Shown: piece by piece, positions 9,728 to 10,305 of the stretch
Layout of the letters: every line of letters begins with the position of its first letter
Position numbering within the stretch: the first letter of the stretch is position 1
The notes under the pieces: model-generated
What the model saw: only the letters and a program-made list of their open reading frames with translations
Databases searched by the model: none
Told to the model about the DNA's origin: nothing
Program-made: the position numbers and the translations under genes
Assembly: GCF_018127925.1 (NCBI RefSeq)
Contig: NZ_CP072348.1
Coordinates: 69,501 to 133,500, forward strand
Direction: 5' to 3'
Source of the DNA: Prevotella melaninogenica
Lineage (GTDB): Bacteria; Bacteroidota; Bacteroidia; Bacteroidales; Bacteroidaceae
Length of the DNA: 64,000 nt

Positions 9728-9955
9728 TTATTCTTCATTCCAAGAAGGCTGTTGCTTTGCAGGAGCAAGTCCTGTTCCATCACCAATAATGACACCTCCC
9801 TCATGTGTTTGCTCTCCTCCCCAAGGAGCTTCCGATGATGCACTTGGGTTTGGAGTTACAGAAACACAAAGGGGACCTTCTGCGCATACAGGTATAACAT
9901 TGCATGTCGGTTGGCTGTACGCTAATTTCTCTAGTTGTTTTTTCTTCATATTCAT
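9728..9955 (-). CDS. Small precursor-like peptide (module 1)
   Basis: A 75-aa basic-to-acidic small protein. It starts MNMKKKQ, has the core YSQPTCNVIPVCAEGPLC, and then a Gly/Pro/Ser-rich tail. Start at 9955 gives an ATGA overlap with the extended reading frame of the leader ORF; a start two codons later (9949) is also possible. The core pattern Y..P...Vi.V..EG.L matches the 68-aa peptide at 53267-53473, which likewise precedes a fimbrillin-like gene by about 33 bases. No lipobox or classical signal peptide is visible. Function unknown; the pattern is common in small Bacteroidales proteins upstream of surface genes. Confidence 0.75.
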   Translation of the reverse strand: MNMKKKQLEKLAYSQPTCNVIPVCAEGPLCVSVTPNPSASSEAPWGGEQTHEGGVIIGDGTGLAPAKQQPSWNEE

Positions 9956-10029
9956 TCTCTAATTATATGTGATAAAAATGTGATTAAATTGTTTCTTATT
10001 TGAATTTTAAGATAAATGCAAAATGGCAC

Positions 10030-10068
10030 AAAAAAGCGAACAAAGGAAACTCCGTGAAGTCCTTTGTT
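10030..10068 (-). terminator. Predicted attenuator hairpin, module 1 leader
   Basis: On the minus strand AACAAAGGA (10068-10060) pairs perfectly with TCCTTTGTT (10047-10039) around a 12-base loop, followed by CGC and TTTTTT (10035-10030). This is an intrinsic-terminator layout placed between the promoter and the first structural gene. It lies within the extended frame of the leader ORF. Confidence 0.75.
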
Positions 10069-10130
10069 TACAACGGTTACGCCACGCTTCGCGCGCGCGT
10101 AAGATGAAAGAAAAAAAGTATGATTAAACG

Positions 10131-10253
10131 CTAGTAGCGCCTGTGTGTGTGTGTGTGTGTGTGTGTGTGTGTGTGTGTGTGTGTTAGCAAAATATCTGAA
10201 ACTACCAAATATAAAGCACTAAAAAAGGCAAAGAAATCAAAGTTTCTTTGCAT
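10131..10253 (-). CDS. Leader ORF running into a (TG)n repeat, 40 aa in this allele
   Basis: From ATG at 10253, about 38 bases after the predicted transcription start, 23 codons (MQRNFDFF..., hydrophobic) lead into the repeat, read as alternating Thr-His. In the present 21-repeat allele the frame ends at TAG (10133-10131), 63 bases before the attenuator stem. If one TG were lost (or two gained), the frame would continue with no stop through the hairpin to TGA at 9954-9952, overlapping the ATG of the next gene; the product would be 99 aa. Coding status is inferred from this geometry and its recurrence in module 2. Confidence 0.55.
   Translation of the reverse strand: MQRNFDFFAFFSALYLVVSDILLTHTHTHTHTHTHTHRRY
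10142..10184. repeat. (TG)21 dinucleotide microsatellite
   Basis: Forty-three bases of uninterrupted TG/CA repeat. It lies in the predicted 5' leader of the minus-strand peptide-lipoprotein operon, inside the leader ORF. Such tracts are prone to slipped-strand length change. Confidence 0.97.
10228..10251 (-). other. Hairpin over the leader ORF start
   Basis: gcaaagaaa (10228-10236) and tttctttgc (10243-10251) form a 9-bp stem with a 6-base loop. It covers the first codons of the leader ORF and precedes the repeat, as does the 11-bp hairpin at 52909-52933 in module 2. Confidence 0.6.
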
Positions 10254-10297
10254 AGCTTTATTATTCTGATATGTTAATGCTAAATTGTTCACGGCTG

Positions 10298-10305
10298 CAA
10301 AGGTA
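10298..10305 (-). promoter_or_regulatory. Promoter -7 box of module 1
   Basis: TACCTTTG on the minus strand matches TAnnTTTG. The predicted start near 10291 leaves a leader of about 335 bases before the 75-aa peptide. A clear -33 TTTG is not seen. Confidence 0.65.

Follow-up and report, generated by a model that had tools for sequence, protein, structure and literature searches.

What purpose might a dinucleotide repeat serve when it lies inside a short leader ORF, a little upstream of a terminator-like hairpin? The window, i.e., the whole stretch of 64,000 nucleotides from Prevotella melaninogenica analyzed here, poses this question on its minus strand, where a promoter box is followed by such a leader, the hairpin, a small peptide gene and a gene for a large fimbrillin-like protein (module 1, Table 1). 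The first-pass annotation had proposed that the repeat number sets whether the leader is translated across the terminator, with the present allele being OFF. The elements on which this proposal was built, namely the promoter box, the repeat, the TAG, H4 with its T6 and the 75-aa gene, are all present where it had placed them, and its frame arithmetic is correct on recomputation: removal of one repeat unit, leaving 20, opens the frame of ATG 10253 for 99 codons up to the TGA at 9952, which lies within an ATGA. With the 21 units of the present allele the leader frame ends at 10131, and with 22 units it would end at 10124. A hairpin followed by six Ts within the leader itself (H1) was absent from that description. 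In a simple terminator scan of module 1, H1 (10251–10228) is the sole terminator-like match and H4 is not listed; an Rfam search of the module 1 region returned no match. The start of the 594-aa protein appears lipoprotein-like by eye.

Table 1. Features of the two cassettes in the window (positions are those of the window; fold z-scores are relative to shuffled sequences)
Feature	Coordinates	Strand	Evidence or remark
Module 1 promoter, −7-type box TACCTTTG	10298..10305	-	sequence
Module 1 leader ORF, probable start GTG 10292	10131..10292	-	53 aa in the present allele
Module 1 H1, hairpin within the leader, then T6	10228..10251	-	fold z −2.02
Module 1 H2, hairpin or palindrome directly 5′ of the repeat	10192..10212	-	fold z −2.10
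Module 1 (CA)21 repeat, putative switch	10142..10183	-	
Module 1 TAG closing the leader in the present (predicted OFF) allele	10131..10133	-	
Module 1 H3, GC-rich ACGCGCGCG stem	10077..10102	-	conserved sequence; fold z −0.68
Module 1 H4, terminator-like hairpin with T6	10030..10068	-	fold z −1.61; cross-species compensatory changes
Module 1 H4 stem AACAAAGGA/TCCTTTGTT	10068–10039	-	T6 at 10035–10030
Module 1 frame open through H4	9952..10141	-	ends in TGA 9954–9952
Module 1 75-aa peptide gene	9728..9955	-	no Pfam family
Module 1 594-aa fimbrillin-like protein	7910..9694	-	Mfa_like_1 (PF13149), E 2.3e-08
Module 1 downstream HU-HIG DNA-binding protein gene	7348..7818	-	E 4.9e-17
Module 2 promoter box TACCTTTG	52719..52726	+	
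Module 2 leader ORF, ATG 52765	52765..52995	+	76 aa; stops directly after the repeat (predicted OFF)
Module 2 H2 hairpin (locus L160)	52909..52933	+	
Module 2 (CT)26 repeat	52939..52990	+	
Module 2 H4	53060..53094	+	sequence unlike module 1, place the same; −23.1 kcal/mol, z −5.39
Module 2 frame open across H4	52991..53206	+	ends at 53206
Module 2 68-aa peptide gene	53267..53473	+	no Pfam family
Module 2 909-aa protein	53507..56236	+	no Pfam match above cut-off; lipoprotein-like start by eye
Module 2 HU-HIG protein gene	56590..57096	+	E 5.9e-18

The arrangement is not confined to one place, and a second copy of the cassette occupies positions 52719–57096 on the plus strand of the same window (module 2); both window cassettes belong to the class in which the leader stops ahead of the hairpin. 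Tandem arrays with a 22-base unit are found at window positions 7204–7284, 20987–21066 and 56465–56555, the first and last of which adjoin or sit within the two cassettes, and arrays of ATTAGCCCA are found at 58215–58255 and 60097–60180.

The same anatomy recurs throughout the home genome (3.36 Mb, two contigs), with a stereotypical order of promoter box, leader ORF, CA or CT repeat, hairpin with T-rich tail and, usually, a small gene followed by a large one. Runs of A/C of at least 20 nt occur at 50 places, of which 32 are CA repeats, all starting TAACACAC; among the best 100 of 105 pyrimidine-run places there are at least 18 CT repeats, all starting ACTCTCTC. A covariance model built from those 50 repeats, spanning the end of the repeat to just past the hairpin, recovers 60 places in the home genome, and the 10 cassettes beyond the first 50 have shorter tracts. 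The 60 comprise 41 CA copies, with tracts of 6–38 units, and 19 CT copies, with tracts of 9–37 units; in the home CA copies the promoter box lies 121–122 nt 5′ of the tract.

Among the first 50 home cassettes, the small gene is present in 48. Its product shows an invariant Y and P in an alignment of 20 of these 48 peptides; its NCBIfam match to a long adhesin is weak (E 0.0064) and we take it to be due to chance. L164 and L168 are without the small peptide gene and instead code for a protein with a signal-peptide-like start, as judged by eye. The large gene is present in all 50, at about 480–910 codons, and most of its products have a lipoprotein-like start by eye. Three of these 50 proteins match Mfa_like_1 at an E-value of 0.01 and one matches BspA leucine-rich repeats; for most of the 50 no Pfam family was matched, and a profile of the large downstream proteins had no match among solved structures. 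A second large ORF, where present, has 145–185 codons in 30 of 40 cases, and in both window cassettes it codes for an HU-HIG protein, which may be connected with the switch or with recombination among the cassettes.

If the repeat selects among reading frames, the tails of the cassettes should bear its imprint, and in 59 of the 60 home copies exactly one frame is open from the repeat through the hairpin. The exception, L149, has none, with one of its frames stopping 11 nt short of H4. Among the relatives' copies, one frame is open in 50/62 and two in 12/62, so that at least one is open in all 62; conversely, at least one frame closes before the hairpin in each of the 122 home and relatives' copies. 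These counts use all 60 home copies and 62 of the 70 copies fetched from relatives, leaving out L303, L306, L328, L334, L335, L352 and L363, in which the script recognized no tract (contig ends truncate L306, L334 and L335, and the tracts of L303 and L328 are very short), and L325, which has an N in its tail. A frame was counted as open if it reached within 4 nt of the nominal stem end, a tolerance on which L156 and L329 depend. The closed home frames end a median of 62 nt, and at minimum 11 nt, 5′ of H4. Because the copies are related, we took a subset of 19 dissimilar tails, less than 80% alike by a simple string-match score: an open frame is present in 19/19, whereas 1000 dinucleotide shuffles average 9.7 (sd 2.1) and reach 17 at most; roughly every second shuffled tail has one or more open frames. 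The earlier contention that the open frame of module 1 is unlikely to be an accident is thus borne out by the whole family. The frame used across the hairpin differs between copies and, therefore, what seems to be kept is the openness and not a peptide. We regard it as close to certain that the repeat number sets the choice of frame across a hairpin at some 60 loci.

On the strength of these comparisons, we think it likely that every cassette works as a phase-variable attenuator of transcription under the control of translation. Transcription would begin at the promoter box and a ribosome would load on the leader at once, with the transcripts of the CA copies being almost leaderless. H1 would lie within translated sequence whatever the allele and may pause the RNA polymerase until the ribosome has drawn level. 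The ribosome would then traverse the dinucleotide repeat. For two of the three repeat classes, a stop would await it shortly beyond, as a rule some 60 nt ahead of H4, whereupon H4 would form and transcription end (OFF). In the third class it would continue through H4, blocking the hairpin, and the downstream genes would be transcribed (ON). Strand slippage during replication would alter the copy number and with it the class, and some 60 such cassettes could generate random surface variation from cell to cell. The core of the earlier reading is strongly supported by sequence comparison, through the 60 paralogous copies, the kept openness of one frame, the intact leaders in 58 of the copies, the conserved hairpins and the scarcity of the class that passes H4. 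We lean further, with some reservation, toward viewing the approximately 60 copies of this one self-contained switch as a genome-wide engine of antigenic variation, with leaders that slip independently and leave most cassettes OFF and a few ON, and in which H1 serves as a translation check or a polymerase pause synchronizing ribosome and polymerase before the repeat.

In the proposed attenuation H4 would be the terminator. Within the home genome its covariation is weak (2/11 pairs, 3 cells) because the sequence is nearly invariant there. Among species, the sequence changes with compensation while the stem and its place are kept, and a stem-loop about 74 nt after the tract persists even where the sequence has been replaced. 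The 11 nt after the stem have a mean of 7.0 Ts in the home genome (minimum 3) and 6.5 in the relatives. The H4 of module 1 taken alone folds only moderately better than shuffled sequences (z −1.61), and the T-runs are poor in some relatives, e.g., G061, G075 and G380. By sequence and fold, H4 is a stem-loop with a T-run between the leader and the genes, and a putative terminator. An alternative is that the OFF state reflects Rho-dependent termination or decay of untranslated RNA, with H4 being an mRNA-processing or stability hairpin. Behind the early stops the RNA would go untranslated over a long distance up to the next gene, and the poor T-runs of those relatives and the failure of the simple scan to list H4 are in keeping with such a role; however, the upkeep of a stem-loop at a fixed distance despite sequence replacement, in module 2 too, and the T-richness after the stem speak against it, and we hold this alternative to be unlikely.

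The other hairpins lie, with the exception of H3, 5′ of the repeat. In most CA leaders H1 ends 41–44 nt 5′ of it, with a T-rich stretch following. Across 57 CA leaders (the 62 distinct ones minus L126, L322, L338, L349 and L365), 97.1% of the H1 cells are paired, with double changes in 8/9 pairs; across all 62, using fixed columns, 94.1% are paired, and pairing falls below 7 of 9 in L126, L322 and L349. H2 ends directly before the repeat and, in the same 57 leaders, is 89.5% paired with double changes in one pair. Taken together, H1 and H2 are matched on the five measures by 0, 1, 0, 2 and 0 of 500 shuffles, and they also exceed all slid versions. A strict stem search did not find H1 in 9 CA and 8 CT leaders, nor H2 in 31 CA and 6 CT leaders. 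In the CT copies H1 is seen only in some, e.g., L156 and those of G075, and most home CT copies have other hairpins where H1 would be. The fold of H3 is no better than that of shuffled sequences (z −0.68).

For the ribosome to read the repeat the leader has to be translated, and its conservation is consistent with this. In the home CA copies a GTG (once an ATG) is located 4–5 nt after the promoter box, and the leader is intact from there to the repeat in 40/41; several copies in G076 have ATG in place of the GTG. The start of the module 1 leader is, thus, probably GTG 10292. ATG 10253, which had been annotated as the start, is rejected because it is not conserved; the conserved GTG is in the identical frame, and the class assignment of module 1 does not depend on the choice because the candidate starts share one frame. 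Altogether, 58/60 home copies have intact leaders, the broken ones being L126 and L157, in which a T-run and an A-run, respectively, are shorter. In L126, L149 and L157 the frame of the leader or tail is shifted by one-base differences in T- or A-runs; such homopolymers may add variation of their own or mark copies in decay. Both alternative frames contain stops in 58/58 intact home leaders.

In the CT copies we dropped the observation that leader length is a multiple of three as separate evidence and replaced it with a test of the first ATG, because stops in H2 force the frame there: in these copies one other frame is closed in 19/19 and the second in 18/19. In 16 of the 19 home CT copies the first ATG after the promoter, chosen without regard to frame, begins an ORF that reaches the repeat, at distances of 129, 147, 150, 156, 174 and 180 nt. 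The other three are L154, which has a GTG there that is open, the broken L157, and L170, in which an ATG further downstream is open.

There is little sign overall that the leader peptide as such is under selection. The pN/pS of the leaders is 0.69–0.91 as compared to 0.68–0.90 in shifted frames, which suggests that being translated matters more than the peptide; the CT leaders show a slight excess of constraint, at 0.69–0.74 versus 0.85–0.90 in shifted frames. A conserved motif, YLVxPNN, precedes the repeat but is inseparable from the H2 hairpin, and inspection of the translated leaders by eye reveals no codon run apart from the repeat.

These data also bear on the possibility that the cassette is an ordinary phase-variable ORF, whose relevant product is the peptide of the long frame or a fusion of leader and small peptide. 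By motif search the open frame is in frame with the peptide gene in 11 of the 123 copies with a recognized tract (L143 and L286 of the home genome plus nine copies in G003 and G026), making an in-frame fusion possible there, and the slight purifying selection on the CT leaders would also fit. However, the remaining copies yielded no fusion in that search, the overall pN/pS is similar to that of shifted frames, and the distances at which the open frames end vary greatly, all of which render this explanation very unlikely. In the 50 home copies tabulated the distance from the end of the open frame to the next gene differs widely, which rules out translational coupling via ATGA as a general rule: the overlap that had been pointed out is real in module 1 but is not a property of the family.

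The predicted switch leaves a further trace in the lengths of the repeats. Under free, unselected slippage one third of the tracts are expected in the pass class, i.e., that in which the leader frame continues through the hairpin. It is found in only 5 of the 58 intact home copies (L122, L124, L142, L166 and L167; binomial P 1.1e-5), comprising 3/40 CA copies (P 1.3e-4) and 2/18 CT copies (P 0.033), with all three P values ignoring relatedness and hence overstating the independence of the copies. When the 41 home CA copies are sorted by unit number modulo three, the classes hold 20, 18 and 3 copies, and the class of 3 is the one that passes with the usual tail. In the relatives, 55 copies have an unmasked leader and 7 of these belong to the pass class, but in G132 (probably Alloprevotella) it is 3 of 5, and therefore the OFF bias is not universal. 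The tracts are also variable in length: the repeat number differs in 10 of 12 pairs with near-identical flanks, including the home pairs L130/L141 (13 versus 18 units) and L139/L140 (27 versus 12). The CT tract of L336 in G061 is read as 223 units, by far the longest, which may be a real expansion or an effect of assembly.

The repeat might instead act via spacing or DNA shape, or H2 and the repeat might together bind a protein such as the HU-HIG proteins encoded downstream. The modulo-three bias and the single kept-open frame, which spacing does not predict, speak against this. The latter version has some appeal in that H2 is a conserved palindrome beside the repeat and HU-HIG genes follow both window cassettes, with ORFs of like size after many others; still, we give this option scarcely more than a slim chance, slightly below that of the phase-variable ORF. 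That the repeats are neutral or mutation-prone passengers with no regulatory role is barely credible, for while unselected expansion of repeats can occur, their same position with similar flanks in 60 copies, the kept openness and the class bias argue against it.

The cassette extends beyond the home genome to related Prevotella and Alloprevotella. Matches were obtained in at least 11 of 100 genomes of the genus sample and at least 22 of 298 genomes, in 3 of 22 genera, of the family sample; in the order sample of 392 genomes, the home genome is the only one among the matches listed. Absences are weak in these samples, as those of more than 40 genomes were searched with stricter filters, taking 35 (genus), 11 (family) and 9 (order) candidates per genome. 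When nine genomes were searched more thoroughly, G348 yielded 38 copies and G222 yielded 10, followed by G132 and G292 (5 each), G288 and G075 (4 each), G380 and G061 (2 each) and G141 (1). The 70 relatives' copies fetched for the above comparisons include all those listed from G003, G026, G076, G075, G046, G061, G017, G288, G132, G141 and G380, together with 4 of 10 in G222 and 2 of 38 in G348, and none from G010, G012, G084, G206, G258, G283, G292, G304, G324, G344, G357, G372 or G376.

Should these cassettes work as attenuators, the ON or OFF state of dozens of likely surface proteins could be read from the genome or from long reads, with the same rule applying to Prevotella and its relatives. 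A switch known from one streptococcus would then exist in another phylum at a far larger scale, and the 60 natural variants would be available for testing the coupling of ribosome and RNA polymerase in Bacteroidota.

The proposed switch resembles several known systems in part. In amino-acid attenuation of the trp type, a ribosome on the leader controls a terminator, as is putatively the case here, but no sensing of codon starvation is apparent by eye in these leaders and the switch would be genetic and stochastic. In Neisseria, opa and other genes form multigene surface families in which slipped-strand changes in repeat number set the translation frame. The present cassettes likewise belong to a likely surface multigene family and their repeat number sets a frame, but the repeat is in a leader rather than in the surface gene or its promoter spacer. 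In the vlhA family of Mycoplasma gallisepticum, surface lipoprotein genes numbering in the tens are each preceded by a repeat, much as the lipoprotein-like genes are here; there, however, the repeat acts at the promoter, whereas here it is in the predicted translated leader.

The closest parallel is the pil1 locus of Streptococcus gallolyticus. As described there (PMC3894217, which also summarizes trp-type attenuation), GCAGA repeats in a leader ORF set the end of translation: the ribosome either stops 39 bp short of a terminator or proceeds into it or beyond. Expression is locked high once the terminator is removed, while loss of the leader start signal results in low, uniform expression. The same arrangement is reported there for pil3 (Danne et al. 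2014). The likeness comprises tandem repeats in a leader ORF with a unit that is not a multiple of three, a frame that decides between a stop well before a stem-loop (a terminator there, a putative one here) and passage into or past it, and the control, predicted here, of surface structures, which in that organism are pili with most cells being low. The systems differ in that pil1 and pil3 use a pentanucleotide at two Gram-positive loci as opposed to CA or CT at 60 Bacteroidota loci, in that pil1 has been dissected with mutants, and in that the CA leaders start 4–5 nt after the promoter box and are accompanied by the extra hairpins H1–H3. The original suggestion of novelty for the Bacteroidota holds to the extent that the titles and abstract openings of the matches listed describe no phase-variable attenuator leader in that phylum, but the principle as such is known from S. 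gallolyticus pil1 (PMC3894217). What is remarkable in the Prevotella cassettes is the scale, the phylum and the covarying hairpin 5′ of the repeat, with the copy number, the bias against the pass class and the strong covariation of H1 being the most surprising of their features.
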